A stretch of DNA of 64,000 bases from an uncultured Agathobaculum sp. (GTDB taxonomy: Bacteria > Bacillota > Clostridia > Oscillospirales > Butyricicoccaceae): the NCBI RefSeq assembly GCF_944380975.1, contig NZ_CALWJK010000004.1:1-64000 (forward strand). Direction: 5' to 3'. Made by a program: the position numbers and the translations under genes. Positions 22,517 through 45,858 of this stretch are shown piece by piece (position 1 is the first letter of the stretch; each line of letters starts with the position of its first letter). The notes beneath the pieces are model-generated. The model searched no databases. It had not been told where the DNA came from and saw only the letters and a list, made by a program, of their open reading frames with translations.

Positions 22517-22630
22517 ATGACTAACACGAAGAATGGTTCTAATCAGGGTATGGTTCCGGAAGCACGCGCTGCAATGGATCGCTTTAAGATGGAGGCGGCA
22601 GCCGAGGTTGCTGTCGCTTCTCCATCTTAA
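22517..22630 (+). pseudogene. N-terminal half of a split alpha/beta-type small acid-soluble spore protein gene
   Basis: ATG at 22517 follows AAAGGAGAGAAAAAAC. The first 31 codons (through GAG GTT at 22604-22609) encode TNTKNGSNQGMVPEARAAMD and RFKMEAAAEV, the conserved start of alpha/beta SASPs, which coat DNA in the spore core. The frame then continues only six more codons (AVASPS) to a stop. The missing 40 codons, including the GDLTSRQAGSIGGQMVKK motif, lie in the same frame and orientation at 45736-45858. Joining at the shared GAGGTTG gives a normal 71-aa SASP. The weak upstream match AATACTA at 22464-22470 may be a SigG -10, but this is uncertain. Confidence 0.9.
22586..22628 (+). other. 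Left attachment site (attL) of the serine-recombinase element
   Basis: Contains the host half-site with AAGATGG (22586-22592), the 7-bp core GAGGTTG (22604-22610) shared with attR, and the element's arm ending in CCATCTT (22622-22628), the inverse of AAGATGG. Everything right of the core is element DNA. Confidence 0.85.
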
Positions 22631-22672
22631 CAAGCCTCATCCCAACCATACTACATACCGGCTCACAACGCA

Positions 22673-22712
22673 AACGACCGCCCTTCACCCCAGTGAAAGG
22701 CGGCCGTTTTCT
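22673..22712 (+). terminator. Terminator just inside the left end of the element
   Basis: Stem arms 22673-22688 and 22693-22708 (14 of 16 pairs) with loop CCCA, followed by TTTTCTGTT on the plus strand. In the integrated state it would stop transcripts from the SASP promoter; in a circular form it would follow the recombinase gene. Confidence 0.75.
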
Positions 22713-22741
22713 GTTACTATGCTTTTTATGGAACGAAATGC

Positions 22742-24982
22742 TCACTCATCTGCGCGCACGCGCACGGTATAGCTTTCGCCATTCTCCAAATCAATGCCCC
22801 TATAGCTATACCCCGGCTCAATGAAGAAACTTCCGTCATCCTCAATGTCCCAGCTGGATGCATAGGTCGTGCCGCTGCCCACGACCTCGCCGGACGAATC
22901 CAGCAATTCCCACACAAACTTTGGTGTCGAGTAATCGCCGCAATCGGCCGTGCCGCGGAAGGAGATATCCAGCTCATAGCAATCGCCATAGGTGGAATAG
23001 CTGAGCTCTGTGCCAATCTCCTCGATCGTAGCCGTGCCGTTTTTGTCCGTCACGGTCAGCGGAACACCTTCAACCCGTACTTCCGGCGCTGCCGCCTGCA
23101 CCTCTCCGGCATCCTTACCGCTGTCATTGCGGAAGGAAACGGTATACGAACCCTCCAGATCCACATCATTCAGATAGATCGAAGCGGAGAACGAATCGCC
23201 CACGCTGTTCGGTGTGCCATGCGTATCGACAACACCGCTGTAAATGACTTTTCCGCTCTCATCCTTCACTTGGCATTTGAGATACGACTGGAACGCAAAA
23301 CGGAAATCCTCATTCAGGCTGGTCAGCGTACCATCGACCTCAATGACGGCCAGATTGTCACTTGTCCAGGTGGACGGCTCAACATCAGTCACCTGAAGCG
23401 TGCCGGCGATGATGGGATCGGACGGGACAAAGTCATAGTCCTGATCCTCCCAATCCTCATCCTTAAGATACAGGCAGTTGAGCGTTACCGGCAGCCGCTC
23501 CGCCTGCACGTCGAACTGATACGCCGGCAGGACAGTAATCGTGCAGCTGCCCGTCGCGCCGTCGGGAGAAACCGCCGTTATGGTAACTTCACCACGGCGT
23601 TTGCCGGTTACCACACCGCCATTTACCGTCGCAATCATGGAGTCGGACGTCTTCCATTCCTTGATCGTGCGGTTGGTTGTGTTTTCCGGATAGACTTTCA
23701 CATCCACCGAGCAGGTTGTACCCTCACGGATGGATTCTTCGCTCGGCGTCAGCTCCAGACGCTCGCCTTTGACAACGGAAATCTGACGCATGCGCATGAT
23801 CGTTACGATGCTCTGCTCCCGGGTATACGAGCCCTGCGGATCGAACTTGCCGCCTTCAATGCCGTTCATAATACCCGCAGCCTGCACCTGCCCGACCTGC
23901 GCGTTGGCCCAAGAAGAGATCGCGCTGCTATCCGTAAATGCAGGTGATGCTGCCTTCAGCTCGGTTCCAAGCTTGCTACTGAGGTTCGACAGGATGACTG
24001 CTGCCTGCTCACGGGTCAGCAGTTCATTCGGCGCAAACTTACCATCACCAACGCCCTGAATCACGCCCAAACTGCCCATTTTCCGTACATTGATATCCTT
24101 TGTGTCTGAAAACTCCACCTTGGCACCGATGGTCCTCCCCGTGCTGTTCTCATGCAGGCTGACCGCCAGTGCGCAGAAATCCGCGCGAGTGATGGGCGTA
24201 TTGAACTTATATTGCAGCTGCCTCGGGACAATACCCGCCGCGATGCCGTTTTCCACATCGGCTGCCGCCCAAGCAGACGGTGTACGGTAATGCGCCACAT
24301 AATCCGGATCCACCCGCGTGGCCAGCGTATTCAGTGTGGATTGCACGGTGTTGCGCAGGTCATACGTCTTTTCCCCGCCGCTGGTCAGCTGCTGCAAGCG
24401 TGCATACCATGTTGCGTGCGGCATTTCCACCGAACTGTTGTCATCTACATAATAATAATGCATTTCACCGGTGGAAGAGAACACATCCTGACTGATGTAA
24501 ACATCGGTCGAATATACCGCATATTTGCGCCTGTCGCTTCCGGTGCTGACCTTCATTTCATACTCATAATTATCACCACCCAAATAACTCCGATCCACCG
24601 GGATGCCTCCGGTCAGACGCACCATTTTTCCATTTTGATAGGTATATACGCAGTCAATCAGAGCGGACGCTACACTATCCCCTTTGTCCCCCACATTCTT
24701 TCCGAACACCAGTTCCGGAATGCCGTTCTGATCAAAATCGATCAGCTGGGCATAGCACACCTTTTGATTGACCCAGTTGACATAAAAGTCATACCCGGTC
24801 AACTCGGATGACGGCACGTCGGTCGGCGGCAGACCGATGCTGTCCAGCTCTGTCTGCACAAAATCGTAATACGCGCGGTACGCGTCATCCACTGCGGATG
24901 CCTCGGCAGTCACGGGGCAAAACACTGCCACCGTAAGCGCCAGCGCCGCAAACAATCCCATAGAACACAGTCGCTTTTTCAT
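22742..24982 (-). CDS. Secreted SLH-domain protein with a Big-2 Ig-like domain
   Basis: A 746-aa exported protein. A signal peptide (KKRL, hydrophobic core, cleavage after AEASA) is followed by a unique domain with DFDQNGIPELVFG, a calcium-loop-like segment. About residues 235-400 hold S-layer homology repeats (for example SLGVIQGVGDGKFAPNELLT and GIMNGIEGGKFDPQGSYT, each followed by R-E-Q). A Big-2 domain (about 405-490, with WKTSDSMIATVNGGVVTGKR) and a beta-rich C-terminus follow. SLH repeats bind secondary cell-wall polymer. It is the leftmost cargo gene of the element. GAGGAGAGGATCAT precedes the ATG. The ligand is unknown. Confidence 0.88.
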   Translation of the reverse strand: MKKRLCSMGLFAALALTVAVFCPVTAEASAVDDAYRAYYDFVQTELDSIGLPPTDVPSSELTGYDFYVNWVNQKVCYAQLIDFDQNGIPELVFGKNVGDKGDSVASALIDCVYTYQNGKMVRLTGGIPVDRSYLGGDNYEYEMKVSTGSDRRKYAVYSTDVYISQDVFSSTGEMHYYYVDDNSSVEMPHATWYARLQQLTSGGEKTYDLRNTVQSTLNTLATRVDPDYVAHYRTPSAWAAADVENGIAAGIVPRQLQYKFNTPITRADFCALAVSLHENSTGRTIGAKVEFSDTKDINVRKMGSLGVIQGVGDGKFAPNELLTREQAAVILSNLSSKLGTELKAASPAFTDSSAISSWANAQVGQVQAAGIMNGIEGGKFDPQGSYTREQSIVTIMRMRQISVVKGERLELTPSEESIREGTTCSVDVKVYPENTTNRTIKEWKTSDSMIATVNGGVVTGKRRGEVTITAVSPDGATGSCTITVLPAYQFDVQAERLPVTLNCLYLKDEDWEDQDYDFVPSDPIIAGTLQVTDVEPSTWTSDNLAVIEVDGTLTSLNEDFRFAFQSYLKCQVKDESGKVIYSGVVDTHGTPNSVGDSFSASIYLNDVDLEGSYTVSFRNDSGKDAGEVQAAAPEVRVEGVPLTVTDKNGTATIEEIGTELSYSTYGDCYELDISFRGTADCGDYSTPKFVWELLDSSGEVVGSGTTYASSWDIEDDGSFFIEPGYSYRGIDLENGESYTVRVRADE

Positions 24983-25102
24983 ATGATCCTCTCCTCAACC
25001 TTTCTTGCATTTCTTTCCACGAAAATCTCTATGCTACCTCCCCCCATTTTATATTTTGCATAGAAATAAATTATTTTTTTATATTTTTTTGGTATATATG
25101 CT

Positions 25103-25131
25103 ATTGAAGCATTTCCTCCCTTTTCTGTCAA
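25103..25131 (-). promoter_or_regulatory. Probable promoter of the SLH protein gene
   Basis: On the minus strand TTGACA (25126-25131), 17-bp spacer, TTCAAT (25103-25108). The 325-bp gap 24983-25307 holds this promoter, a very AT-rich leader (25030-25100) and the divergent yesN-like promoter; no gene is seen in it. Confidence 0.5.
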
Positions 25132-25307: not shown

Positions 25308-26585
25308 ATGGCCACTAAATCATTATATACCGTGATTGTCGCAGACGATGAGGATGAATTGAGGGAAGCTGTATGCACCATGATTCCTTGGGAGGAATAT
25401 GGCTTCCGTCTGGTTGGTAGTGCCAGTAACGGATTGGACGCGCTGCAAATGGTAGAGGAATGCGAGCCTGATCTTCTGCTCACCGATATCCGAATGCCGT
25501 TTATTTCCGGCATCGAGCTTGCCAGGCAGGTTCGTGAGGTTCGGCCTGCCACCAACATCGCTTTTCTCAGCGGTTACGACGATTTTGAATACGCCAAGCA
25601 GGCGATTCAATATAATATCATCAGCTATATGCTCAAACCCTTAACTATGGAAGGCTTGAGCAAAGAGCTGCAAAATATCCGCCAGAAGATCGACACCCAG
25701 TTCGCCATGTTCCGTCAGGCAACCCCCAATCCCAGCGGCATGGATCTGCAGACGGCGATGCTGATGCCGCTGGTGCTGGATGATTACGCCGAACCGGACG
25801 GAGAACCGCGGGCAAAGGCCTATGCCCGCCAGTGCGGCCTGCTGCGGGATATGGAGGACAGGCCCCATTTTGTTGTGATGGTATCCACCCTTCTGGAAGC
25901 GGACGGCGGCAACTGCACCGCGCCCTCCTTTGTTTCTTCCGTCAACCGACTGGCAACCAAATATCTGCGCGGTGCCCATTTTTTCGCCTCCGGCAAGGTC
26001 ATTTCTGTACTGCTGGGCAACCCCTCCGACTTTGACAAATATCTTCATATTCTGGCAGATGAAATCCCCCAAATGGCCGACCGCGTGCTGGGCAAATGCT
26101 GCCGCATCGGCATCAGCCGCGCAACGCGCAATTTGACCTCTCTGCACGATGCGTATCGCGAAGCGATGGAAGCCCTGCGTCAGGGCGACGGCATGGAAAG
26201 CGGCGCACAGTTCATCAGCGATTTGTCGCCTGCCGTCAAGGGGGGCGAGCTTCTGTGCAAAAAGGCCATGGAGGCACTCAACCAACATTATATGGATGCC
26301 AATCTCTCGCTGGTATCACTCAGCGGCATGCTGACCGTCAGCCCCAATCACCTTTCTGCCTGCATCAAAAAATATGCTGGCGAAACCTTCATCAACATCC
26401 TGATCCGCAAGCGAATGGAAGCGGCCCGCGAACTGCTGGTGTCTTCCCCGCTAAAAATTCAGGAGATCGCCCAGCGATGCGGTTATACCGACCAGCATTA
26501 TTTCAGCTATTGCTTTAAAAAATATTGCGGTGAATCCCCCAGCACCATGCGCCGCAGGCTGGATCGGGAAAAGGCGGGTGATTGA
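25308..26585 (+). CDS. YesN-type response regulator (receiver plus AraC DNA-binding domain)
   Basis: A 425-aa regulator. The N-terminal receiver has the acidic pair ADDEDE (residues 12-17), phosphoacceptor D60 in LLLTDIRMP, and the lysine in YMLKPL. A central region of about 180 residues without clear motif follows. The C-terminal AraC/XylS domain (about 320-420) has two helix-turn-helix units, the second in EIAQRCGYTDQHYFSYCFKK. It overlaps the kinase gene by 4 bp or sits 2 bp from it. Context suggests that it controls the adjacent mgl-gal genes, probably activating mglB; this is inference. Confidence 0.93.
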   Translation: MATKSLYTVIVADDEDELREAVCTMIPWEEYGFRLVGSASNGLDALQMVEECEPDLLLTDIRMPFISGIELARQVREVRPATNIAFLSGYDDFEYAKQAIQYNIISYMLKPLTMEGLSKELQNIRQKIDTQFAMFRQATPNPSGMDLQTAMLMPLVLDDYAEPDGEPRAKAYARQCGLLRDMEDRPHFVVMVSTLLEADGGNCTAPSFVSSVNRLATKYLRGAHFFASGKVISVLLGNPSDFDKYLHILADEIPQMADRVLGKCCRIGISRATRNLTSLHDAYREAMEALRQGDGMESGAQFISDLSPAVKGGELLCKKAMEALNQHYMDANLSLVSLSGMLTVSPNHLSACIKKYAGETFINILIRKRMEAARELLVSSPLKIQEIAQRCGYTDQHYFSYCFKKYCGESPSTMRRRLDREKAGD

Positions 26586-28306
26586 CTGTGAAGGATGGCG
26601 TCTCCCGCACAGGGCTGCGCATCACCACCATTCTTGTCTCTATGGTGGTGAGTGTAGTCGCGGTCATCCTGTGCTGCTGCATTCTTCTCTTTCTCAACCG
26701 ATACCGCAGCGCTATGGTACAAAGCGCCCTGACCAACAGCGATCAGGCAGTCTCGCAGGTATCGAATACCGTTGGCAACTATCTGCAAAGCATGGAGCAG
26801 GCTATGTCACTGGTCGAGTGGTCCATGCTGGAAAGCGCCGATAACCGCAACCAGCTTCTGGACGCTTTCCTGACCTTCCGTCCGGATGTGGTGGCGGTGA
26901 CCAGCTATTCCCCCTCCGGCAAGATGCTGGACTGCTGGTGTCTGGATCGGGAGCCACGCGAGAACATTTATCAAAACCTTTCCTTCAATCTGGATCGGGC
27001 TCGCGCCTCCGGCGGCGCCTATATGACCGCCCCCCATGTAGAGAGCATTTTTGAGGGCTATTACCCTTGGGTCGTGACCATGACCGTTCCGCTCGAATCC
27101 GGCAATCAGACGGCATGGGTATCGCTCGATCTGAGCTTTTCCAGCATCTCCACTTACATCAACAACGTCAGCATTGGCCAGCGTGGATACTGCTTTCTGA
27201 TGGACAAGGAAGGCAACATCGTTTATCATCCACAGCAGCAGCTGCTGTACGCCGGCCTGAAATCCGAGGACACCTCCTCGCTGGCATCATTGGCAGACGG
27301 CTCTTATGTCGACGACACGGTGATCTATTCCGTCACCAGTGTGGCGGACAGCGACTGGCGAATCGTGGGCGTCAGCTATGTGGATGAAATGGTCAACCGC
27401 AGCTTCCGGGAAATGATCCGTCTTTCCCTTGTACTGGGTGCAGTGCTGCTTGCCGCCGCGGTGTTGACCAGTTTTCTTCTCTCCCGCCTGCTGGCGCGCC
27501 CGCTCCGCGGTTTAGAAGCTGCTATGGAAAGCTTCGAAACCGATGCCGACCACTTCACCTATGTGCCTGTGGGCGGTACCCGCGAAGTGCAGGAGTTATC
27601 CAGTTCATTCGAGCACATGGTGCTGCGCATCCAGCGTCTGATGTCCACCGTGCGCGAGGAAGAGGTCAACCTGCGCAAAACCGAGCTGAAAGCGCTTCAA
27701 GCGCAGATCAATCCGCATTTTTTATACAACACGCTGGATTCGATCGCATGGATGTGCGAGCAAGGCCGCAATGACGACGCGGTAAAGATGATCCATGCGC
27801 TGGCTCGCTTGTTCCGCATCAGCATCAGCAAGGGTCACGAGCTTATCCCCATCGCCAAGGAGATCGAACACGCAGAAAGCTATCTGCAAATCCAGAAATA
27901 CCGCTATAAAAACCAGTTCACCTATGAATTCGATGTCGACCCTGCATGTCTCAACTACTACTGCAACAAGATCACTCTACAGCCTATCATCGAAAATGCC
28001 ATCAACCATGGTCTTGACCTGCTGGTGGATGAGGGCCGCATCACCGTGCAGGTGCGGCAGGACGGCGAGGACATTGTCTTTGATGTCCGGGATAATGGCG
28101 TAGGGATGAGCGACGAGCTGATCCAATCCATCCTGGCGCACGCGCCGGAAGACCGTACCGGTATCGGCATTCGAAACGTAAACGACCGTCTGCAAATCTA
28201 TTTCGGCAAGCAGTACGGCCTGCACATCACCAGTGAACCGGATGTGGGCACTTGTGTGGAGCTGCGCATGCCAAAGATACAGGAGGGGGATTATGAGACG
28301 AAATAG
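26582..28306 (+). CDS. YesM-type sensor histidine kinase
   Basis: A 574-aa membrane kinase. A transmembrane helix (about residues 15-40), a Cache-like extracellular sensor (about 45-275), a second transmembrane helix (about 280-303), a HAMP linker, the His_kinase domain with H379 in INPHFLYNTLDSI, and an ATPase domain with DNGVGMS and GIGIRNVNDRL. The start could be TTG at 26582 or GTG at 26588; both share the AAGGCGGG site. It overlaps the following sugar-binding lipoprotein gene by 14 bp. Signal input probably comes from that lipoprotein, as in XylFII-LytS-YesN xylose sensing. Confidence 0.93.
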   Translation: MTVKDGVSRTGLRITTILVSMVVSVVAVILCCCILLFLNRYRSAMVQSALTNSDQAVSQVSNTVGNYLQSMEQAMSLVEWSMLESADNRNQLLDAFLTFRPDVVAVTSYSPSGKMLDCWCLDREPRENIYQNLSFNLDRARASGGAYMTAPHVESIFEGYYPWVVTMTVPLESGNQTAWVSLDLSFSSISTYINNVSIGQRGYCFLMDKEGNIVYHPQQQLLYAGLKSEDTSSLASLADGSYVDDTVIYSVTSVADSDWRIVGVSYVDEMVNRSFREMIRLSLVLGAVLLAAAVLTSFLLSRLLARPLRGLEAAMESFETDADHFTYVPVGGTREVQELSSSFEHMVLRIQRLMSTVREEEVNLRKTELKALQAQINPHFLYNTLDSIAWMCEQGRNDDAVKMIHALARLFRISISKGHELIPIAKEIEHAESYLQIQKYRYKNQFTYEFDVDPACLNYYCNKITLQPIIENAINHGLDLLVDEGRITVQVRQDGEDIVFDVRDNGVGMSDELIQSILAHAPEDRTGIGIRNVNDRLQIYFGKQYGLHITSEPDVGTCVELRMPKIQEGDYETK

Positions 28307-29264
28307 ATGGCGCTCTGTATGGGCCGCTGTGCTGTGCATCCTGCTTTGTGGCTGCTCGACCGGCACCAACTACTCCCGACAGCATACGGTGGCGCTGGTA
28401 GTCAAATCCACACAGACAGAATTTTGGCTGTCCGTCTTTGCCGGGGCGGAAGCTGCCGCCACGGAGTACAATCTGAAGCTCAATATCATTGGTCCGGATA
28501 CGGAAGAGGATTATGAAGCCCAAAACCAAATGGTGGCCGACGCGGTCAGTGAAGGCGCGGAAGCAATTGTTTTTTCCGCCATCGACTACGAAAACAACGC
28601 CGCTGCCATCGACGATGCCGCAAAGCAAGGCGCCAAAATTGTAGCCATCGACAGCAACGTAGACTCCGAAGCGGTCAGCACCTACATCGGCACCGACAAC
28701 TATGCTGCCGGGCAGATGGCAGCGCAGGCAGCACTTGATCGGGTCAATACGCCGCTCAAGGTCGGCATCGTCAACTATGATATCAGCAGCGCCAACGGTC
28801 AGGAGCGTGAACAGGGCGCGGTGGATACCTTTGCTGACAGCGGCAGGGCGGAGGTCATCAGCGTCATCAACACGCTGGCCGATGCCGGTCACGCCAAACG
28901 GGATACCACTGCCCTGCTTACATCCCACCCGGAAATCAATGTGCTGCTGGCCTTTAACGAGCCGACCAGCGTGGGCGCTGCGCAGGCAATCGAGGAAATG
29001 GGCCTGTCCGACACGGTTTTTCTGGTGGGATTTGACTCCAACGTTGCCACCGTGGACGGACTGCAGGAAGGCTCGGTCGATGCCCTCATTGTGCAGAATC
29101 CCTATGCCATGGGCTATCTGGGTGTGGAAAGCGCTTACAAGCTGCTCGCCGGACAGGCCGGCGGGATGGAACGCATCGTGGACACTTCGACCCAAATCGT
29201 CGACAGGGACAACCTTTTTGAAGTGGACAGCCAAAAGGCTCTGTTCGCGTTTGACTCCCGTTGA
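28293..29264 (+). CDS. Sugar-binding lipoprotein (RbsB/Peripla_BP_4), likely sensor partner of the kinase
   Basis: A 323-aa lipoprotein with a lipobox-like LLCGC and a periplasmic-binding-protein fold in the normal order: HTVALVVKSTQTEFWLSVFAG at the N-terminus, IGTDNYAAGQMAAQAAL in the middle, and the LLAFNEPTSVGAAQAI and VGFDSN ligand segments. The ATG at 28293 follows AGGAGGGGGATT; a longer frame upstream is overlap with the kinase gene. It is translationally coupled to the kinase and separate from the mglBAC transport operon. That placement suggests a sensing role rather than transport. The ligand is unknown, galactose or another hexose being likely. Confidence 0.88.
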   Translation: MRRNRWRSVWAAVLCILLCGCSTGTNYSRQHTVALVVKSTQTEFWLSVFAGAEAAATEYNLKLNIIGPDTEEDYEAQNQMVADAVSEGAEAIVFSAIDYENNAAAIDDAAKQGAKIVAIDSNVDSEAVSTYIGTDNYAAGQMAAQAALDRVNTPLKVGIVNYDISSANGQEREQGAVDTFADSGRAEVISVINTLADAGHAKRDTTALLTSHPEINVLLAFNEPTSVGAAQAIEEMGLSDTVFLVGFDSNVATVDGLQEGSVDALIVQNPYAMGYLGVESAYKLLAGQAGGMERIVDTSTQIVDRDNLFEVDSQKALFAFDSR

Positions 29265-29354: not shown

Positions 29355-29383
29355 TTGTTTTTCCGGTTCACTTCGCCTACAAT
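29355..29383 (+). promoter_or_regulatory. Probable promoter of mglBAC
   Basis: TTGTTT (29355-29360), 17-bp spacer, TACAAT (29378-29383). A GGGAGG/CCTCCC inverted repeat (29395-29400 / 29418-29423) lies in the leader, before the ribosome-binding site AAAGGAGAGAAGGAG. Any YesN binding site upstream is not recognisable by eye. Confidence 0.55.
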
Positions 29384-29450
29384 AAAAGCAAGCAGGGAGG
29401 AACCCCGGTTGGACGTCCCTCCCAATTCAAAGGAGAGAAGGAGAATCATT

Positions 29451-30734
29451 ATGAAGAAGAAGGTACTCGCGCTTACCCTGACTGCAGCAATGATGCTCAG
29501 TATGGCAGCTTGCTCCTCCGGCGGCAACACTTCGGATGCCTCGCAGGACAACGGCGGTACGGAGGCGGCGGAGGTTGCCAACAAGGATAAGCCCTTAGTA
29601 TGGTTTAACCGTCAGCCCTCCAACAGCTCCACCGGCGAGCTGGACATGACCGCTCTGAACTTCAACGACAACACTTACTACGTAGGCTTTGACGCCAACC
29701 AGGGCGCTGAGCTCCAGGGCACCATGATTCTGGACTACGTAAAGGCTAACATCGACACCATCGACCGCAACGGCGACGGCATCATCGGTTATGTACTGGC
29801 CATCGGCGATATCGGCCACAACGACTCCATCGCTCGTACCCGCGGCGTTCGCGCAGCGCTCGGCACGGCGGTTGAGAAGGACGGCGCGATCGTCAGCGAT
29901 CCGGTCGGCAGCAACGCAGACGGCTCCGCTACCGCTGTTAAGGACGGCTCTCTGGAAGTCAACGGCAAGACCTACATTGTCCGCGAGCTGGCTTCTCAGG
30001 AAATGAAGAACTCCGCCGGTGCAACTTGGGATGCTGCTACCGCTGGTAACGCGATCGGCACCTGGGCTTCCTCTTTCGGTGATCAGATCGACATCGTCGC
30101 TTCCAACAACGACGGCATGGGCATGTCCATGTTCAACGCTTGGTCCAAGGCGAACAAGGTTCCGACCTTCGGCTACGACGCAAACGCTGACGCTGTTGCA
30201 GCAATCGCAGAAGGCTACGGCGGCACCATCAGCCAGCACGCTGACGTTCAGGCTTACCTGACCCTGCGCGTACTGCGCAACGCACTCGACGGCGTTGACA
30301 TCGACACCGGTATCGGCACGGAAGACGACGCTGGCAACGTGCTGAGCGACGACGTTTACTACTACGACGAAGCGGCTCGCTCCTACTACGCTCTGAACGT
30401 AGCAGTTACCGCTGACAACTACACTGAGTTCACCGACTCCACCAAGGTTTATGAGCCTGTCAGCAATCAGCTGGATGCATCCGCTCATCCGGAAAAGAGC
30501 GTATGGCTGAACATCTACAACGCTGCTGATAACTTCCTGAGCGCTACTTATCAGCCGCTGCTGCAGAACTACGACGATCTGCTCAACCTGAAGGTCGAGT
30601 ACATCGGCGGCGACGGCCAGACCGAGGCCAACATCACCAACCGTCTGAGCAACCCGAGCGCATATGACGCCTTTGCCATCAACATGGTTAAGACCGACAA
30701 CGCTGCTTCCTACACTGCTCTGCTGAGCCAGTGA
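29451..30734 (+). CDS. mglB: Galactose/glucose-binding lipoprotein MglB, circularly permuted
   Basis: A 427-aa lipoprotein (lipobox AAC, C21) capturing galactose for the MglAC transporter. Residues 47-~333 match the part of E. coli MglB that starts at its residue ~85: PLVWFNRQPS, YYVGFDANQGAELQG, the calcium loop DRNGDGIIG, IGHNDSIARTR, ASNNDGMGM, GYDANAD. The canonical N-terminal ~80 residues are instead at 349-427: SVWLNIYNAADNFLSATY and DAFAINMVKTDN. All known sugar contacts are kept (N53, H123, D125, R129, W193, N219/N220, D243, D360, F362). A linker (about 334-348) joins the old termini. The ATG follows AAAGGAGAGAAGGAG. Codon use is strongly biased, fitting high expression. Confidence 0.93.
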   Translation: MKKKVLALTLTAAMMLSMAACSSGGNTSDASQDNGGTEAAEVANKDKPLVWFNRQPSNSSTGELDMTALNFNDNTYYVGFDANQGAELQGTMILDYVKANIDTIDRNGDGIIGYVLAIGDIGHNDSIARTRGVRAALGTAVEKDGAIVSDPVGSNADGSATAVKDGSLEVNGKTYIVRELASQEMKNSAGATWDAATAGNAIGTWASSFGDQIDIVASNNDGMGMSMFNAWSKANKVPTFGYDANADAVAAIAEGYGGTISQHADVQAYLTLRVLRNALDGVDIDTGIGTEDDAGNVLSDDVYYYDEAARSYYALNVAVTADNYTEFTDSTKVYEPVSNQLDASAHPEKSVWLNIYNAADNFLSATYQPLLQNYDDLLNLKVEYIGGDGQTEANITNRLSNPSAYDAFAINMVKTDNAASYTALLSQ

Positions 30735-34183: not shown

Positions 34184-34263
34184 CCATTTACACGAATCAA
34201 AATTGTAACTATGTTTGATAACAGCGCTCCGGTCCACCGGAGCAAGAAGGAGTGAATGCAACC

Positions 34264-36584: not shown

Positions 36585-36586
36585 GC

Positions 36587-38086: not shown

Positions 38087-39124
38087 ATGACAGAATTTAC
38101 GCATCAACCCTTTGGCGTCACGGCTGACGGCCAAGCAGTCGAGCAGTGGACGCTGCGTGCCGGTTCCTATGCCGCTCAGGTACTGACCTATGGCGGTGTC
38201 CTGCGTTCGTTTACCGTCCCCTCTCCTGACGGTAGTCGGGACATTGTGCTGGGGTATGACAGTCTGGCCGAATATGAGGCACAGGATAAGTATCTGGGCG
38301 CATTGGTCGGCCGCGTGGCCAACCGTATTGGCGGCGCGGCTTTCGACCTGAACGGTGTCCATTACTCGCTGGCTGTCAACAACGGCCCCAATTGCCTGCA
38401 TGGCGGCTTGCGCGGTTTTGACCGTGCGGTATGGAAAGCACAGGTTGAAAACGATGCCTTGGTGCTGCGTCATGTCAGTCCGGCTGGGGACGAAAATTTC
38501 CCCGGCACGCTTGAAGTACAGGTAACCTACACCCTCACGGAGGATGGCGCGCTCACACTGGACTATCAGGCGAAGAGCGATGCCGACACCCTGTGCAATC
38601 TGACCAACCACAGCTATTTCAACCTGCTGGGACACGCCCACGGTTCTCTGGAAGGACAGCAGGTACAGATTTTTGCCGATGCTATCACTGAAACCGATGC
38701 CGACAGCACACCGACCGGTGTTCTGCTGCCGGTCGAGGGTACGCCATTCGACCTGCGTACCCCGCGGGATTTCCTGCTGGGTTTGGCCATGGAACATCCG
38801 CAGCTGACGCTGGGCAACGGATACGACCATAACTTTACGCTGCACACGACGCCGGTTTCCCCGCTGGAACCGGCAGCACGTGTCTGCGGCGGTGGTCTGT
38901 GTCTGGAATGCTCCACCACCCAGCCCGGCTTGCAGCTGTACACGGCCAACTATCTGGACGGCAGCCCCGGCAAGGACGGTGCCTGCTATGGTCCGCGGTC
39001 GGCTTTCTGTCTGGAAACACAGGCTTGGCCGGATGCCATCCATCATGCCAATTTCCCCTCCATCGTACTTGCAGCGGGGCAGACCTATCATCACACCACT
39101 TGCTATCGCGTCACGATGATTTGA
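38087..39124 (+). CDS. galM: Aldose 1-epimerase (mutarotase)
   Basis: Converts beta- to alpha-galactose for GalK. The 345-aa protein has the family features: the N-terminal MTEFTHQPFGV region, VGRVANRIGGAAF with substrate arginine, LHGGLRGFDRAVW, LTNHSYFNLLGH with the catalytic His, and the C-terminal SAFCLETQAWPDA with the catalytic Glu region. It starts 3 bp after galT. A stem-loop follows at 39161-39200. It completes the galactose set next to mglBAC. Confidence 0.95.
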   Translation: MTEFTHQPFGVTADGQAVEQWTLRAGSYAAQVLTYGGVLRSFTVPSPDGSRDIVLGYDSLAEYEAQDKYLGALVGRVANRIGGAAFDLNGVHYSLAVNNGPNCLHGGLRGFDRAVWKAQVENDALVLRHVSPAGDENFPGTLEVQVTYTLTEDGALTLDYQAKSDADTLCNLTNHSYFNLLGHAHGSLEGQQVQIFADAITETDADSTPTGVLLPVEGTPFDLRTPRDFLLGLAMEHPQLTLGNGYDHNFTLHTTPVSPLEPAARVCGGGLCLECSTTQPGLQLYTANYLDGSPGKDGACYGPRSAFCLETQAWPDAIHHANFPSIVLAAGQTYHHTTCYRVTMI

Positions 39125-39335: not shown

Positions 39336-39421
39336 ATATGAGTTGTCTGCACTGAGCGGCTGCATTTTTGCTTTACCGCTCTACTATGCAGACAAGAAAC
39401 AAAATGAAGGGATCGAATGTT

Positions 39422-41347
39422 GTGGACAAGAAAGAATTCCAACCTTATGTTCCCGCCGACAAAGTCATGCCGGAATTTACCGTGGTATCCATCCTATTGG
39501 GTGCCATTCTGGCAGTCGTCTTTGGCGGTGCGAACGCCTATCTTGGGCTGCGAGTCGGCATGACCGTGTCTGCCTCTATACCCGCTGCTGTTATCTCGAT
39601 GGGCATCATCCGAAAAGTTCTGCGCCGTGACTCCATTCTGGAGAACAACATGGTTCAGACCATCGGCTCTGCGGGTGAATCCGTTGCAGCCGGTGCAATC
39701 TTCACCCTCCCCGCTCTGTTTATGTGGGCAAAGGAAGGCCTGTGCGATGTGCCGTCTCTGGTTGAGATTGGGCTGATCGCACTGTGCGGCGGCGTGCTGG
39801 GCGTACTGATGATGATACCCCTGCGCAGCGCACTGATCGTCAAGGAGCACGGCGTGCTGGCTTATCCGGAAGGACAGGCCTGTGCCGAGGTGCTGATCGC
39901 CGGCGAAGAGGGCGGCTCCAAGGCGTCGACCGTTTTCTCCGGTCTGGGCATTGCCGCGATCTACAAGTTTGTAGCCGACGGCCTCAAAATCTTCCCGAGC
40001 GAAATCACCTATGACATCTCCGCCTACAAGGGCTCCGGCATTGGTATTGATGTTCTGCCCGCGCTGGCTGGTGTTGGTTACATCTGCGGCGCACGGGTGT
40101 CTTCCTATCTGTTTGCCGGCGGTGTGCTGGGCTGGCTGGTCATCATGCCGCTCATGTGCCTGTTCGGCGGCGACGCCATCCTCTTCCCTGTCACCGACAT
40201 GACCATTAGCCAGCAGGTTGCTGAAAACGGCGTCTCCGCGCTGTGGGGCAACTATCTGCGTTACATCGGTGCAGGTGCGGTTGCCTGCGGCGGTGTGCTC
40301 AGCCTTCTGAAATCCCTCCCCATGATTATCCGCACCTTTAAGGATTCCATGGGGGTTTACGGCAAGGGCCGCGAGGCCAGCACCCTGCGCACCCAGCAGG
40401 ATATTTCCATGCGCAGCGTATTGCTTGGCATCCTGATCGTTGCACTGGCGCTGTGGCTGATCCCGGCCATTCCGCTGAACTTCTTCACTGCGCTCATCGT
40501 TATCGTCTTCGGCTTCTTCTTTGCGACGGTATCCTCCCGTATGGTCGGTCTGATCGGCTCTTCGAACAACCCGGTTTCTGGTATGGCCATCGCTACGCTT
40601 CTGATCTCCACCATCCTGCTGAAATCCACCGGCACAGACGGTGCAGAAGGCATGACGGCTTCCATTGTTATCGGCGGCATCATCTGTATCATTGCTGCGA
40701 TCGCTGGCGATACCTCTCAGGACCTCAAGACCGGCTTCCTGGTTGGCGCTACCCCGAAAAAGCAGCAGATCGGTGAGCTGATCGGCGTTGTGGTTTCCGC
40801 CATTGCCATCGGCGGTACGCTTTACCTGCTGTCCATGGCTTGGGGCGGCTACGGTTCGGATGCACTGCCTGCACCGCAGGCAACGCTGATGAAGATGATC
40901 GTTGAAGGCGTTATGGGCGGCAATCTGCCGTGGAACCTCGTCTTTGCCGGTGTCTTCATTGCGCTGGTCATTGAGATTCTTGGCCTCCCTGTTCTGCCGG
41001 TTTCCCTCGGCCTGTATCTGCCCATTTATCTTTCTGTTCCGATTATGCTGGGCGGTATTCTGCGCTGGTTCCTCGAGAAGCGCAAGTATAGCTCTGACAA
41101 GGAAAAGAACACGGTTATCCAGTCCGGTATCCTGTATTCTTCCGGCTTGATCGCTGGCGAAGGCATCGTTGGTATCATTCTGGCTATGCTGGCCGTTATC
41201 CCGATGGGCGCAGGCAGCAATGTCGGCGAGTTCATCGATCTGAGCGGCTCGTTCAGCATCGGCCGCATCGGTGGTCTGATTGTGTTTGCGCTTCTGCTGC
41301 TGACCATGTATCTCTTTGCAACCAAAGAACAGAAGAAGACCAAATAA
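39422..41347 (+). CDS. OPT family oligopeptide transporter
   Basis: A 641-aa polytopic protein of the OPT family, which imports peptides or metal chelates with protons. About 14-16 hydrophobic segments are seen. Recognisable parts are the N-terminal [51 protein letters not shown] and the [15 protein letters not shown] segment. Start choice is uncertain: GTG at 39422 has AAGGGA 9 nt upstream; an ATG at 39404 is also possible but poorly served. It is followed by a stem-loop, a PqqD-like gene, a small membrane protein and pepD, a combination that suggests uptake and breakdown of peptides. Confidence 0.92.
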
Positions 41348-41404: not shown

Positions 41405-41424
41405 GATCATTATAGGAGGATACT

Positions 41425-41784
41425 ATGGCAAAGAAGCAACAAAACTATCTGGACTTTATCCCTGTGGTCAATCCGCAGAATAGCTGGACACAGGACGAAC
41501 AGGGTATTGTCACGATTGATATGGTCCACCGCGGTTTTTATGCGCGTATTGCGCAAAAATTCTTCCACACGCCGCGCGTCAGCCATATCAAGCTGGATGA
41601 ATACGGCAGCTTTCTTTGGAAGGAAATCGACGGCATACAGACCGTCGGCGACCTTGCAGCCAAAATGAAAGCCCAGTTCGGTGAAAAAGCTGAGCCCTTG
41701 TATGACCGTCTGGTCAAGTATATGCAGATCTTGCACAACAACCGTTTTATCTTGTTTTCTGGAAAGGATAAGGTAAAATCATGA
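41425..41784 (+). CDS. PqqD family (RiPP recognition element-like) protein
   Basis: A 119-aa protein whose central part resembles the PqqD fold: a three-strand wing (VTIDMVHRGFYARIAQKF) then helices with the SHIKLDEYGSFLWKEIDGI segment, and KYMQILHNNRFILF at the end. In peptide-modification systems PqqD domains bind leader peptides. No radical SAM maturase or precursor is next to it here; its neighbours are an OPT peptide transporter and a dipeptidase. AGGAGGATACT precedes the ATG at 41425. It overlaps the next gene by 4 bp. The role in this context is unknown. Confidence 0.8.
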   Translation: MAKKQQNYLDFIPVVNPQNSWTQDEQGIVTIDMVHRGFYARIAQKFFHTPRVSHIKLDEYGSFLWKEIDGIQTVGDLAAKMKAQFGEKAEPLYDRLVKYMQILHNNRFILFSGKDKVKS

Positions 41785-42125
41785 GCACCGGACAAATCAT
41801 TATCGGCATTGTTCTGTTCGCCATCGCGTCCGCCATTCTGTATGTCTGGGGACTGCGCAAAAGCATGACGCAGGCCGCCGATTTGGAGCACATCCTGCTC
41901 AGCAAAAGTGCTACGCGCGTGATGCAATATCTCAAGCACCACCCAACCATTTCCCAAAAAGAAGTGGCACGCCAGATCAAAAACGTCAAAGCGGGTCTGT
42001 TCTGGTCCCGCAAGCAAGTGCAGGTGCAAGACGCAACTGTTTTTGCCAAAAAGCTGACCCGCTATATGCTGGAACAGCAACTGCTTGAACCGGCTGGCAA
42101 CGCCTGCTACAAACGAAAATCATAA
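41781..42125 (+). CDS. Small membrane-anchored protein with a possible winged-helix domain
   Basis: A 114-aa protein of unknown function. One N-terminal transmembrane helix (about residues 5-25) is followed by a basic cytosolic domain: SATRVMQYLKHHPTISQKEV looks like the first two helices of a winged helix, and the C-terminus is KRYMLEQQ-like and Lys/Arg-rich. It overlaps the PqqD-like gene by the ATGA junction, so both are made together. I do not recognise the family. It could be a membrane-tethered partner of the PqqD-like protein. Confidence 0.65.
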   Translation: MSTGQIIIGIVLFAIASAILYVWGLRKSMTQAADLEHILLSKSATRVMQYLKHHPTISQKEVARQIKNVKAGLFWSRKQVQVQDATVFAKKLTRYMLEQQLLEPAGNACYKRKS

Positions 42126-42150
42126 CCATTTCAAAAAGGAGCATCACACA

Positions 42151-43590
42151 ATGAATGTACTGGAACAATTAGATCCCCAAAGCGTATTCCACTTTTTTGA
42201 GCAGATGTGCGCCATCCCGCATGGCTCTGGCAATACCAAGGCAATCAGCGATTGGTGCGCTTCTTTCGCGCAGGAGCGCGGGCTGGAGTACCATCAGGAT
42301 GCCGACAACAATATCATTATCATCAAGGAAGCTACACCCGGCTATGAGCAGGCAGAGCCCATCATCTTACAGGGTCATTTGGACATGGTGTGCGAAAAAG
42401 AGCTGAACTGCACCAAGGACATGGAAACAGAAGGGCTGGATCTGATGATCGACGGGGACTGGGTCCGTGCCAAGGGTACCACGCTCGGCGGTGACGACGG
42501 TATCGCGGTGGCCATGGCGCTGGCTGTGCTCGACGCGAACGATCTTGCGCATCCGCGTGTGGAAGCCGTGTTTACGGTCGATGAAGAAATCGGTCTGCTG
42601 GGCGCGGACTCGCTCGATGTCAGCCCGCTCAAAGGCCGCAGAATGATCAATATGGACTCGGAAGCCGAAGGCATCTTCACTGTCAGCTGCGCGGGCGGCA
42701 ACACCACCACCTGCATTCTGCCGCTGTGCCGCGACGCATTTTCCGGCTGCGCCCTGCGTATCACGGTCGGTGGCCTAACCGGCGGCCACTCCGGCGCTGA
42801 GATCGACAAGGGCCGTGCCAATGCCAACATGCTGATGGGTCGCATTTTGCAAGCCATTGCTTTGCGCACAGAGCTGCGTATCCAAGCTGTCAACGGCGGT
42901 TTGAAAAACAACGCCATCCCGGTCGAGTCGGTTGCCGATGTTTGGGTCGCGGACGAAGCAGCAGCACGCAAAGTCATTGCAGAAATGGCGGATGCCCTGA
43001 AGGAGGAGTACCGCGTCACCGATCCCGCGCTGCATATCAGCACGGAAGCAGCAGAGACGGCGCAGAATCCGCTGGATGCGGCAACCACCGATCAGGTGAT
43101 CTGCCTGCTCACCTGCCTGCCCAACGGCATTCTAGCCATGAGCGCGGATATTCCTGGTCTGGTGCAGACTTCCCTCAATCTCGGCATCCTTACCACGACG
43201 GACGAAGAACTGTGCGCCGTATTCAGCCTGCGCAGCTCGATCGACTCTCAACTCCAGATGCTCAAGCGGCGTCTGACCTGCCTGATGAAGCAGTTGGGCG
43301 GCCGTGTGGAATTTGAAGGCGAGTATACCGGCTGGCAGTATCAGGAGCACTCTCCTCTGCGCGAATTGATGGTCGATGTATTCCAAGAGCAGTACGGCCA
43401 TGCCCCCAAGATCGAAGCCATTCATGCGGGTCTGGAATGCGGCCTGTTCGCCGGAAAAATCCCCGGTCTGGACTGCGTTTCCATCGGTCCGGATATGCCG
43501 GAAATCCATACGCCGCGCGAACGGATGAGCATTTCCTCGGTACAGCGTGTCTGGAAGCTTCTTGTAGAAGTACTCCAGCGCGCCAAATAA
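42151..43590 (+). CDS. pepD: Aminoacyl-histidine dipeptidase PepD (M20C)
   Basis: Cytoplasmic zinc dipeptidase that splits Xaa-His and other dipeptides. The 479-aa protein has the M20 metal motifs: the LQGHLDMVCEK segment, GDDGIAVAMALAVL, VDEEIGLLGADSL with the catalytic Glu pair, and the C-terminal IHAGLECGLFAGKIPGLD. Length fits PepD. The ATG at 42151 follows AAAAAGGAGC. With the upstream OPT transporter it forms a likely peptide-utilisation unit. A terminator follows at 43637. Confidence 0.95.
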   Translation: MNVLEQLDPQSVFHFFEQMCAIPHGSGNTKAISDWCASFAQERGLEYHQDADNNIIIIKEATPGYEQAEPIILQGHLDMVCEKELNCTKDMETEGLDLMIDGDWVRAKGTTLGGDDGIAVAMALAVLDANDLAHPRVEAVFTVDEEIGLLGADSLDVSPLKGRRMINMDSEAEGIFTVSCAGGNTTTCILPLCRDAFSGCALRITVGGLTGGHSGAEIDKGRANANMLMGRILQAIALRTELRIQAVNGGLKNNAIPVESVADVWVADEAAARKVIAEMADALKEEYRVTDPALHISTEAAETAQNPLDAATTDQVICLLTCLPNGILAMSADIPGLVQTSLNLGILTTTDEELCAVFSLRSSIDSQLQMLKRRLTCLMKQLGGRVEFEGEYTGWQYQEHSPLRELMVDVFQEQYGHAPKIEAIHAGLECGLFAGKIPGLDCVSIGPDMPEIHTPRERMSISSVQRVWKLLVEVLQRAK

Positions 43591-43636
43591 GCCACCTCTA
43601 AAAGTCCAGTCTCCCATTTTGGGAAGCAGCAATATC

Positions 43637-43678
43637 AAAACCGCCGATCCTGCATCCTGCAGGGTTGGCGGTTTTTCG
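43637..43678 (+). terminator. Terminator after pepD
   Basis: Stem AAAACCGCC...GGCGGTTTTT with an inner CCTGCA/TGCAGG stem, then TTTTTCGTT. It separates pepD from the recombination genes. Confidence 0.8.
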
Positions 43679-43782
43679 TTCGCATGCGACCGTCCATCTG
43701 TCCGATATCGCTTTTAGAACCGCTGTGCAAGCGCATAATTTTGTTTTGGATGATGCAAGTTATAGGAAAAGGAGGAATTGAT

Positions 43783-43971
43783 ATGCATACTGACCCTCAT
43801 TCCACTCCGCCCGCTATACAAGGAATACAGACACAGATCGGTGCAGGCACCTTTCTGGTCAGGCGGCAATATGTCGGCAGCTGTCCGGTCGGTGAACTGC
43901 TCCAGCAGCGTGTGCAGCAAGCCGCACACACAACATCATCCATTGACGAGGGGATCGGCGCCGCGGTATAA
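43783..43971 (+). CDS. TnpW-like small protein of the recombination module
   Basis: A 62-aa ORF with a strong ribosome-binding site (AAAAGGAGGAATTGAT before ATG at 43783). The middle, QIGAGTFLVRRQYVG followed by CPVGELLQQRV, resembles the short IGxTTYxVxxxF...LxxLI pattern of TnpW-type proteins found beside large serine recombinases in clostridial elements. It is 37 bp upstream of the recombinase and on the same strand. Its function is unknown; a recombination directionality factor is one possibility. Family assignment rests on weak similarity and context. Confidence 0.6.
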   Translation: MHTDPHSTPPAIQGIQTQIGAGTFLVRRQYVGSCPVGELLQQRVQQAAHTTSSIDEGIGAAV

Positions 43972-43983
43972 TCATTGCGTGAG

Positions 43984-44019
43984 CCGGTTCTGAAAGGAGT
44001 TAAACCACATGAGAACCGG
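43984..44019 (+). promoter_or_regulatory. Inverted repeat spanning the recombinase ribosome-binding site and start codon
   Basis: CCGGTTCT (43984-43991) and AGAACCGG (44012-44019) are perfect inverted arms. The loop of 20 nt holds the AAAGGAG site and the ATG (44009-44011) just before the second arm. It could be a translational control element or an operator dyad. Confidence 0.5.
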
Positions 44020-45682
44020 TAACAAGACATTGGCATTCGCTTACTTGCGTCTTTCCAACGAGGAAGCGCACAGCAGTGAATCGTCCAGTATTGCCAACCA
44101 GCGGCAAATGATTCGGGACTACTGCCAGCGGCACAGCATTATGCTGGTACGCGAATTCGTGGACGACGGCTACTCAGGCGGTAACTTTGACCGTCCTGCA
44201 TTTCAGGATATGCTGCGGCAGCTGCACGATAACAAGGCCAATATGGTGCTTACCAAGGATCTGTCCCGCCTCGGGCGCGACATGCGCGAAGCCAGCTATT
44301 ACGCCGAGCAGTTTTTCCCGGAGCACGGCATCCGCTATCTAACCATTGCAGACAATTTTGACACTGCACATGAAAACGTCATGGCGCCGTTCCAGTTTGC
44401 CATGAACGAGGTCTATCTGCGGGACGGTTCACGCAAGGTTAAAGACGTGCTGCGCAGCAAACGGGAAAACGGCCAGTACTGTGCCTGCCCGCCCTATGGC
44501 TATCGTAAGAATCCGGCAGACAAAAGCCGTCTTGCCCCGGACGAGCAGACTGCCCCCATTGTTCAGCGTATTTTCGAGCGGGCAGCAGCCGGGGATTCCT
44601 CGCGTAAGATCGCACTTGACCTGAACGCAGACAGCGTTATCCCCCCGCTCAAATACCGTGTGCTGTTTCGTGATGATTTCAGCCCAGAGGGCGCGGCACG
44701 GGCATCCGACCTGTGGAACTACACTACCGTCAAACGGATTCTCAAAAACCCAGTCTACCTCGGACACACTTTGCTGGGCAAAAGCCGCAAGGTCAGCGTC
44801 AAGTCCAAGAAAAAGGTAGCTGTACCGCAAAGCGACTGGGCCGTGACGCATGACACGCATCCCCCACTCATCACACAGACGCTCTATGAACAGGCGCAGC
44901 GCAATCTGGGACGCGGACAACACGCCAATCGTACCGATAGAGACATCCGCAAGAGCATTTTTGCCGGACTGGTGTTCTGCGCACGCTGCGGACACGCGCT
45001 CTGTTCCTGCGGCACAGTCTACAAAGGAGAACGGGGAAAATACTGGTATTTGTCCTGCACACATCAGCGCGGCGATATCGCCAATCGATGCGATGGCGTG
45101 CGCATCAAATATGCGGATCTGATCGAAGTAGTGCGGCGCGATCTCAACGATCTGCTGACGCTGACCGATACACAGGCCGAAGCGCTTGCACGGGCAACCG
45201 CAGAACGGGAGCAGGGCGCATCCGAACGCACAGCACGGCAAGCCCGCTTACAGCAGGCACAGTCCCGCCTGCTGACCATCGACAAAGTCATTACCAAGCT
45301 GTACACGGACAACGCCGAAGGCCGACTGGACGACGATCGTCTGACGCGCATGGTCGAAGCGCTCGAGCAAGAATCCGCTTCGCATCAAGCCGTTATCGCA
45401 GAGTTATCGCAGACGTTTCCACCGCAGGAGGACACAGAGGAACGCTTTCGACGTTTCTTTGCGCTTACCAAGCAGTACAGCCAGATCGACGTACTCGACC
45501 GCGACACACTGCTCACCTTTGTCGAACGCATTGAAGTCGGGCCCAAGCAATTTGCCGACGGCCGGCGCAAAGCGACCCACCGCAATACCCCCTACCGGCA
45601 GAGCATCCGCATATCGTATCGCTTTATCGGTGAAATTACAACCGACAATGCGCAAGTGCTCGATGCATCCTGCAATTTTTAA
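44009..45682 (+). CDS. Large serine recombinase (TnpX/TndX/SpoIVCA type)
   Basis: A 557-aa site-specific recombinase. The resolvase domain (about 1-155) has catalytic S16 in AYLRLSNEEA, and LTKDLSRLGRDMREA with arginines of the active site. The Recombinase domain (about 165-300) includes CACPPYGYRKNPADK. The zinc ribbon has C324, C327, C350 and C361. A coiled coil (about 390-450) and a C-terminal tail follow. AAAGGAG precedes the ATG by 9 nt. The gene ends 47 bp before the attR core, the expected place next to its own attachment site. It most likely integrated, and can excise, the 23-kb element. Confidence 0.95.
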   Translation: MRTGNKTLAFAYLRLSNEEAHSSESSSIANQRQMIRDYCQRHSIMLVREFVDDGYSGGNFDRPAFQDMLRQLHDNKANMVLTKDLSRLGRDMREASYYAEQFFPEHGIRYLTIADNFDTAHENVMAPFQFAMNEVYLRDGSRKVKDVLRSKRENGQYCACPPYGYRKNPADKSRLAPDEQTAPIVQRIFERAAAGDSSRKIALDLNADSVIPPLKYRVLFRDDFSPEGAARASDLWNYTTVKRILKNPVYLGHTLLGKSRKVSVKSKKKVAVPQSDWAVTHDTHPPLITQTLYEQAQRNLGRGQHANRTDRDIRKSIFAGLVFCARCGHALCSCGTVYKGERGKYWYLSCTHQRGDIANRCDGVRIKYADLIEVVRRDLNDLLTLTDTQAEALARATAEREQGASERTARQARLQQAQSRLLTIDKVITKLYTDNAEGRLDDDRLTRMVEALEQESASHQAVIAELSQTFPPQEDTEERFRRFFALTKQYSQIDVLDRDTLLTFVERIEVGPKQFADGRRKATHRNTPYRQSIRISYRFIGEITTDNAQVLDASCNF

Positions 45683-45706
45683 TAAATTTCTTGTATCTAT
45701 TGCTTT

Positions 45707-45749
45707 AAGATGGTGCAGGAACACCAAGGGAGGTTGGCGTCAACCTGAA
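45707..45749 (+). other. Right attachment site (attR) of the element
   Basis: Element arm AAGATGG (45707-45713), then the core GAGGTTG (45730-45736), then host SASP sequence. Joined with the element arm of attL it makes an imperfect 48-bp palindrome (16 of 24 half-site positions match) centred on the core's first two bases, GA. Confidence 0.85.
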
Positions 45750-45858
45750 GCAGGGCTATAACGGCGATCTGACTTCCCGTCAGGCTGGCTCGATCGGTGG
45801 TCAGATGGTCAAGAAGATGATCGAATCCTACGAGCAGAACCTGGCTGGCCAGGGCTGA
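45730..45858 (+). pseudogene. C-terminal half of the split alpha/beta-type small acid-soluble spore protein gene
   Basis: In the frame of GAG GTT at 45730 the sequence reads EVGVNLKQGYNGDLTSRQAG, then SIGGQMVKKMIESYEQNLAG, QG and stop. This is the conserved C-terminal two-thirds of alpha/beta SASPs, including the GGQMVKKMI DNA-binding motif. It has no start codon, ribosome-binding site or promoter of its own; the codon eight triplets upstream in frame (45706-45708) is a TAA stop. It is therefore silent as it stands. Excision of the element would fuse it in frame to codons 1-31 at 22517-22609. Confidence 0.92.

Follow-up and report, generated by a model that had tools for sequence, protein, structure and literature searches.

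How does a gene for a spore protein persist when an inserted element has cut it in two? The question is raised by a 64,000-nucleotide stretch of DNA from an uncultured Agathobaculum sp. (the window, meaning the whole stretch analyzed), which lies on contig C4 of a 2.34-Mb assembly of 88 contigs and 91% completeness (G000; G-numbers denote genomes and L-numbers the loci compared). In it, a gene for an alpha/beta-type small acid-soluble spore protein (SASP) is interrupted by an element that carries a large serine recombinase (LSR). Our best reading, to which we give slightly better than an even chance, is that this is a skin-like element in the only SASP gene found and that it leaves the gene by regulated excision, likely in the forespore during sporulation, with reinsertion later.

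The split SASP gene and its attachment sites

Read directly from the sequence, the SASP frame opens with an ATG at 22517, and its codons 1-31 close with GAG GTT. The seven bases GAGGTTG occur at 22604-22610 and again, 23,126 bp further on, at 45730-45736, where 40 codons run in frame to a TGA at 45856-45858; the open reading frame (ORF) of the LSR (44009-45682) stops 47 bp short of 45730. In a profile search of the whole G000 assembly, both SASP pieces matched PF00269 above the cut-off, and the recombinase matched PF00239, PF07508, PF13408 and PF14287, also above cut-off, domains that place it among the LSRs and the site-specific recombinases. The original prediction had described a SASP gene split at 22604 and 45730 with an LSR ending 47 bp from the right half; these coordinates are exact, the recombinase is confirmed by its Pfam domains, and the split recurs in eight of the 25 Agathobaculum genomes compared. 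The features that carry the argument are these:

22517..22605, + strand: left (N-terminal) SASP part, up to the putative GA crossover (sequence, PF00269)
22604..22630, + strand: attL, putative crossover GA and P' arm ending CCATCTTAA (arm comparison)
43783..43971, + strand: small ORF of 62 amino acids, candidate recombination directionality factor (position before the LSR)
44009..45682, + strand: LSR with Resolvase, Recombinase, zinc ribbon and DUF4368 domains (Pfam; SASP half adjacent in 58 of 61 relatives)
45704..45731, + strand: attR, P arm TTTAAGATGG...ACACCAAGG and putative crossover GA (arm comparison)
45730..45858, + strand: right (C-terminal) SASP part (sequence, PF00269; no in-frame start)

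Left unexcised, the left part translates to a stop ending at 22630, which gives 37 amino acids. Between the preceding TAA and the right half, no ATG, GTG or TTG lies in frame; lacking a start codon, this half would not be expected to be translated by itself. As in skin-type elements, the insertion lies inside a sporulation gene with both parts in frame on either side, and the split is not a chance arrangement, because the identical junction recurs beside the same LSR in those eight of 25 genomes.

It had been suggested that the split might be tolerated because SASPs form a gene family, and that other SASP genes in the genome should be counted. No PF00269 match besides the two halves was found anywhere in the G000 assembly (2.34 Mb, 91% complete), so the count is none. 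Among 45 LSR-bearing genomes outside the genus that were searched whole, an intact SASP was not found in 44, the sole exception being the genome of L066; completeness figures are not available for them, and some yielded only one half. Since the gene is split in genomes where these searches turned up no other SASP, redundancy is not supported as the reason for tolerance, and we rejected it.

The seven-base repeat had been taken as the core. It is present at both ends, but the crossover is probably the GA dinucleotide that begins it and not the repeat as a whole. The arms of the element are mirror images about GA (22604-22605 and 45730-45731), with 17-21 of 27 positions agreeing across seven genus genomes and at most 11 of 27 in six controls shifted by 1-3 bases; the P arm has the layout TTTAAGATGG-N7-ACACCAAGG, and the P' arm carries CCTTG, TGT and CCATCTTAA at the mirrored places. 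The junction dinucleotide is nearly constant, being GA in 45 of 47 forward junctions (CA in the other two) and in all 11 reverse ones. It is because of these mirrored arms and this near-constancy that we place the crossover at GA. The left copy of the repeat diverges to GAGCTTG in G010 and to GACCTTG in G009, where only GA and TTG are common with the right copy, and these divergent copies, together with the GA-centered arms, led us to drop the seven-base core as the crossover. Judged from these alignments, the repeat in G000 owes part of its length to chance, and a GA crossover in G009 and G010 would still bring in the conserved right-hand bases.

Relatives with and without the insertion

LSRs 84-94% identical to that of the window occupy the same place in A. 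massiliense, Candidatus A. pullicola, Candidatus A. merdipullorum and uncultured Agathobaculum, relatives that assign the window to this genus. Among the 25 genus genomes, the LSR with an adjoining SASP right half was found in eight (both halves in seven) and an intact SASP in 13; G024 is cut at another site, G013 has no SASP match, and two more are taken up below. The search for an intact SASP at this locus in relatives, which the original prediction had proposed, succeeded: in G015, G003 and G008, the intact gene is flanked by the window's own neighbors, an EF-G/NYN protein gene and a ptsI-like gene, which supplies the empty allele at the same place that characterizes skin-type elements. In all six genomes with both halves on one contig (G000, G001, G009, G010, G020 and G022), their order permits excision, with 4.1 to 23.2 kb between them, and the near-complete G001 has the two SASP halves only and no other SASP. 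In A. massiliense Marseille-P4005 (L062), 19.7 kb separate the halves.

Outside the genus, the recombinase family is tied to the same gene. We compared 61 loci with LSR relatives at 48-94% identity, seven from Agathobaculum and 54 from outside, whose record titles name mostly Oscillospiraceae, Ruminococcus and other Clostridia. The LSR abuts a SASP half in 58 of these 61 loci, many of which are related, with 47 in forward and 11 in reverse orientation (a script tallied 45 forward, 11 reverse and five without a half, and L108 and L115 were added from their sequence). The LSRs of Pseudoflavonifractor capillosus An827, Oscillibacter valericigenes An411, Dysosmobacter and Ruminococcus use the same att position in the SASP gene; those outside the genus differ in being only 48-69% identical to the window LSR and, in 11 cases, in reverse orientation. 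Where the two halves share a contig outside the genus, they stand in excisable order in seven of eight cases, 4.2 to 120 kb apart, the longer spans being 76 kb in G112 and 120 kb in G131, the genome of L120 (O. valericigenes An411; G131:C1:288542-408977). The three loci without a SASP half are L099, which stops at the LSR, L101, which has no SASP, and L103, which has other DNA beyond the core.

The ends of the right halves vary. Forty of the 47 forward halves were classed as intact to the stop, and seven are cut again at GGQMV (six by script, plus L084, whose sequence is also altered there); these are L073, L075, L078, L084, L107, L114 and L115. The same second insertion site, GGQMVKKM, is used at L158 and L159 (both G024), L152, L162 and L163, and in G024 the reading frame of a different LSR continues into the missing SASP end (KKMIESYEQNLASQG). 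L109, among the 40 intact, has an unusual right-half end (6472-6810), and 240 bp beyond it lies another, partial SASP copy. At L103, from 5523, the right half is replaced after the core, and a reading frame there resembles, by eye, a tyrosine integrase.

Selection on the halves was read from their divergence. Changes were counted by parsimony, with 74% nonsynonymous expected without selection, on sequences chosen by a protein pattern that covers every genus split half found by PF00269 with an LSR (eight right and seven left; G006 and G011 were left out). The right half has 30 synonymous and 10 nonsynonymous changes across the eight split genomes (P = 1.1e-10) and 10 and 2 across the four with galactose cargo (P = 5.1e-5), and the left half has 16 and 0 across seven genomes (P = 4.7e-11) and 3 and 0 across the same four (P = 0.012). 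Six intact genomes gave 45 synonymous and 16 nonsynonymous changes, and 31 and 7; as intact and split genomes are alike in counts, no relaxation is visible. On these counts, both SASP halves are under purifying selection, the right one despite its missing start codon. In the four genomes with shared cargo, the split appears to be old, because the cargo has diverged to much the same degree as host genes: between G000 and G020, the synonymous divergence (dS) is 0.35 for GalT, 0.28 for PTSI, 0.48 for the EF-G-like protein and 0.37 for the LSR. The LSR outpaces cargo and host genes between G000 and G009, with a dS of 1.10 versus 0.53-0.60.

Promoter-like motifs and a proposed switch

Two promoter-like motifs bear on how excision might be regulated:

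22439..22467, + strand: TCATA-N17-CAAAATA, promoter-like motif before the SASP gene (22 upstream regions aligned)
43733..43762, + strand: motif like the gpr and SASP ones, GCATA-N18-CAAGTTA, just ahead of the small ORF's ribosome-binding site (eight of eight genus elements)

The first was recognized by eye in alignments and turned into a fixed pattern, which fits 21 of 22 SASP upstream regions, is kept in split and intact relatives, and also fits 16 of 18 upstream regions of gpr, the SASP protease gene (20 gpr loci were fetched, and two off the start pattern were left out). A matrix built solely from Agathobaculum gpr and SASP promoters, roughly NYATA-N17-CAAAATA, has its best match 6-8 bases ahead of the AGGAGG before the small ORF in all eight genus elements. 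Single sites are modest, with AT-matched tails of 0.014-0.155; the mean score of the genus elements is reached by none of 20,000 random draws, AT-matched background included. Outside the genus, among 48 loci that had no part in training and include near duplicates (for example, L070/L120 and L113/L114), the best match within 400 bp directly precedes the ribosome-binding site of the small ORF in 19, compared with a mean of 4.8 and a maximum of 12 loci in 100 runs with scrambled matrices. Six of seven Agathobaculum loci pass this position test; A. massiliense (L062) fails, as another match scores higher. In B. subtilis, gpr and sspA/B are sigma-F/sigma-G genes, and because the motif before the small ORF and LSR resembles those of gpr and SASP, we infer that this operon is under forespore control, by sigma-F or sigma-G. 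The spoIVA promoter was of no use as a mother-cell reference, because spoIVA appears to lie within an operon.

The small ORF has a counterpart at the same place in all eight genus elements, and a small ORF stands ahead of the LSR in 33 of the 48 outside loci, as found by a script with loose criteria and with likeness judged by eye. We also considered and rejected an assignment to TnpW (PF14202), which the window ORF does not match and one relative matches at 12.5 bits against a cut-off of 25. We envision that its product is a directionality factor. With integration at attB in the SASP gene taken as the default reaction of the LSR, sigma-F or sigma-G would switch on the operon in the forespore, LSR and small protein together would cut attL x attR at GA, and the joined gene would yield a 71-amino-acid SASP where SASP is needed. 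The excised circle would remain enclosed in the spore; after germination, when no small protein is left, the LSR alone might return it to attB, the weakest step of the scheme. Such reinsertion would account for the survival of the element, galactose genes included, in a cell lineage that goes through a spore stage. The reversible germ-line switch in this full form, with excision in every forespore, a circle riding in the spore and reinsertion at germination, which would take whole lineages of gut Clostridia through one such cycle per spore generation, is a tentative proposal, possible but rather unlikely as a whole.

How this compares with known systems turns largely on the cell compartment. 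Both gerE, a late mother-cell regulator and the target of the gin element, and yabG are mother-cell genes; gin differs from the window element in this respect, and the SASP-split family here spans 58 loci. The Listeria comK prophage, whose excision is reversible, differs in being a phage in a competence gene with no part in sporulation. Like the excision proposed here, it takes place in a cell that is not terminal (PMC5025042, in the part available). The same excerpts describe skinCd of C. difficile, in which the LSR CD1231 alone integrates and excision needs the directionality factor CD1234, placed under a sporulation promoter, a role that the small ORF may fill here; they also tie sporulation-gene insertions to terminal cell lines, ensuring their inheritance. 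Both skin and skinCd, which lie in sigK, are LSR elements in a sporulation gene, as here; in the accounts accessible to us, sigK is a mother-cell gene and excision takes place in the terminal mother cell, whereas SASP is a forespore gene and the window element, unlike skin, carries metabolic genes and no phage genes found by Pfam. For SP-beta (spsM), vfbin (spoVFB) and vrin (spoVR), the available text of PMC4191935 reports that excision restores the sporulation gene, as is predicted here, and that excision of SP-beta is mother-cell specific, so that the spore keeps the phage; these targets are mother-cell genes and SP-beta is a phage, whereas the window element sits in a forespore gene. In B. 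cereus ATCC10987, gin, like our element, is not a phage, interrupts a small sporulation gene and brings its own recombination system (PMC5595907, in part). The portions of the literature at hand name spoVFB, spoVR, gerE and yabG as other targets and put the published elements compared in mother-cell genes, and our literature searches turned up no report of an LSR that targets SASP or sigG. Set against skinCd and SP-beta, the forespore compartment of the proposed excision is the new point; the original prediction had cautioned that excision there would be inherited, a concern that is real and is itself what is novel.

Cargo, competing readings and significance

Between its attachment sites, the window element carries the following genes ahead of the small ORF and LSR:

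22742..24982, - strand: SLH / Big_2 protein (Pfam)
25308..26585, + strand: AraC-type response regulator (Pfam)
26582..28306, + strand: sensor histidine kinase (Pfam)
28233..29264, + strand: sugar-binding protein (Pfam; NCBIfam below cut-offs)
29355..30734, + strand: MglB-like binding protein (Pfam; below NCBIfam cut-off)
30932..32440, + strand: MglA-like ABC ATPase (Pfam; below NCBIfam cut-off)
32456..34111, + strand: sugar-type ABC permease (Pfam)
34252..35550, + strand: galactokinase, galK (Pfam)
35592..36584, + strand: NAD-dependent epimerase, GalE-like (Pfam)
36539..38083, + strand: galactose-1-phosphate uridylyltransferase, galT (Pfam)
38087..39124, + strand: aldose 1-epimerase, galM (Pfam)
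39368..41347, + strand: OPT oligopeptide transporter (Pfam)
41425..41784, + strand: PqqD-like protein (Pfam)
41781..42125, + strand: 114-amino-acid ORF without a family (Pfam, NCBIfam)
42085..43590, + strand: M20 peptidase (Pfam)

In sum, these comprise a two-component pair, a galactose-type ABC transporter, galK/galE/galT/galM, an OPT transporter, a PqqD-like protein and an M20 peptidase. The full set also occurs in G020 and its galactose part in G009 and G010. Other elements in the same split differ: type I restriction-modification genes accompany an FtsK/SpoIIIE-type ATPase in G001 and an FtsK-type ATPase in A. massiliense (L042 403-6673, L041 6421-7989), and in G022 one protein weakly resembles HipA, at a score under the Pfam cut-off. 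In G019, which has an intact SASP, galactose genes lie at another place, and no relative of the LSR was found in the 19 kb read there. We rejected a prophage and an integrative conjugative element as identities, since Pfam found neither phage structural or packaging genes nor relaxase or conjugation genes among the window element's ORFs. Elsewhere in the window, a T-box leader lies at 15565-15806 on the minus strand.

The excisable SASP element of the original prediction is supported by the empty sites, the SASP-tied LSR family, selection on the halves and the gpr/SASP-like motif; what did not appear is the excised circle, whose attP junction pattern was found in 0 of 87 genomes and in no viral contigs (where a search for relatives of the LSR gave 10 stretches that matched a search pattern for it, none of them a relative). 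This absence weighs against regulated excision, as do the other observations of this paragraph and the patchiness, tree conflict and state of sigG and spoIVA described in the next two. The small ORF matches no Pfam or NCBIfam family, and none of its 10 homologues is named. Without the position criterion, the motif reaches p<0.05 in only 9 of 48 loci. In 2 of the 25 genus genomes (G006 and G011), there is a left half only and no LSR, and G006 has no SASP piece beside ptsI in the stretch read; G021 has a right half only, followed by genes other than ptsI. In G016, the halves are on two contigs, with alaS 2.3 kb ahead of the LSR. At L083, the eighth outside pair, the halves face each other (4895-5029 on the plus strand, 11760-12176 on the minus strand) on either side of the LSR, an arrangement such as an inversion would leave. 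With spans of 76 and 120 kb, failure to reinsert the circle would cost the cell a great deal of DNA, and with many of the loci related, the family counts are not independent. On the element side of the G016 locus (L049, G016:C15, 440-2935 in reversed reading), alaS and a gene for a transporter that looks MATE-like by eye lie near the LSR and right half, which reflects either rearrangement or misassembly.

A plain mobile element could also treat the SASP gene, being conserved, as a safe place to land, by ordinary integration with rare loss, destroying a gene whose absence is tolerated for a time, with halves that look selected because the splits are young. The split is indeed patchy on the PTSI tree, several nodes of which are weak, and the LSR tree pairs G021 with G022, whereas the PTSI tree groups G021 with G006 and G007; this clear conflict and the patchiness mean that some gain or transfer occurred. 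Both orientations are used (11 of 58 reversed), and the cargo varies by species between galactose genes, type I restriction-modification and a HipA-like kinase. However, four genomes share cargo in the same split at host-like divergence, and their right half still shows 10 synonymous versus 2 nonsynonymous changes. A SASP/gpr-like motif on the small ORF-LSR operon would not be expected on this view, an intact SASP was not found in 44 of 45 genomes searched, and we judge this explanation somewhat unlikely.

It appears improbable that sporulation itself is decaying, with no spores made any more and sporulation genes gathering insertions as dead sequence. The case for decay draws on sigG, whose product should recognize the SASP promoter and which is in two distant pieces in 20 of the 25 genus genomes; in the one-contig G005, they lie on opposite strands, 757 kb apart. 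A second LSR sits within the SASP gene of G024, and no paper on Agathobaculum spores stood out among the matches listed. Furthermore, spoIVA, found in 20 of 25 genus genomes, was not found in 4 of 8 split assemblies (G009, G010, G016 and G020, 78-90% complete, also negative with a full-length query) versus 1 of 17 others (G013); in these five incomplete assemblies, a chance gap, a shared binning loss and a real loss cannot be told apart. Decay is countered by the strong purifying selection on both SASP halves, by gpr in all 25 genus genomes, by full-length spoIVA in the split genomes G000, G001, G021 and G022, and by the SASP promoter-like motif retained in split species. The sigG C-half likewise shows 19 synonymous and 0 nonsynonymous changes between G000 and G020 (four of eight pairs, those with G009 or G022, were one codon out of register and were dropped). 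Because this part is so strongly conserved, sigG may work as a sigma factor in two pieces, or recombination may rejoin it. In G000, its pieces lie at C27:25486-25764 and C11:1665-2126 (L177 and L176); in the loci read, the C-part stands behind a different LSR and mostly begins ATGCCGATG, and its match ends near residue 238-243 in L176 (after EIHISQ), G004, G012, G020 and G024, as if recut.

Excision in the mother cell only, as for skin and SP-beta, with SASP made there acting outside the forespore, would agree with accounts, as far as available, that confine SP-beta and skinCd excision to the mother cell, but SASPs are established forespore proteins and the small-ORF motif resembles those of gpr and SASP, both B. 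subtilis forespore genes, which makes it very improbable.

The split and the recombinase family that recurs with it stand firm, and regulated excision of a skin-like element remains the reading we favor. It would describe an element that is widespread, interrupts a forespore gene, occurs in genomes that yielded no other SASP and breaks the rule of mother-cell genes, and it raises the question of whether excision can be reversible in an inherited cell line. If it is true, many gut-bacterial assemblies would show a key spore gene as broken though it is functional, which would matter for predicting which bacteria sporulate.

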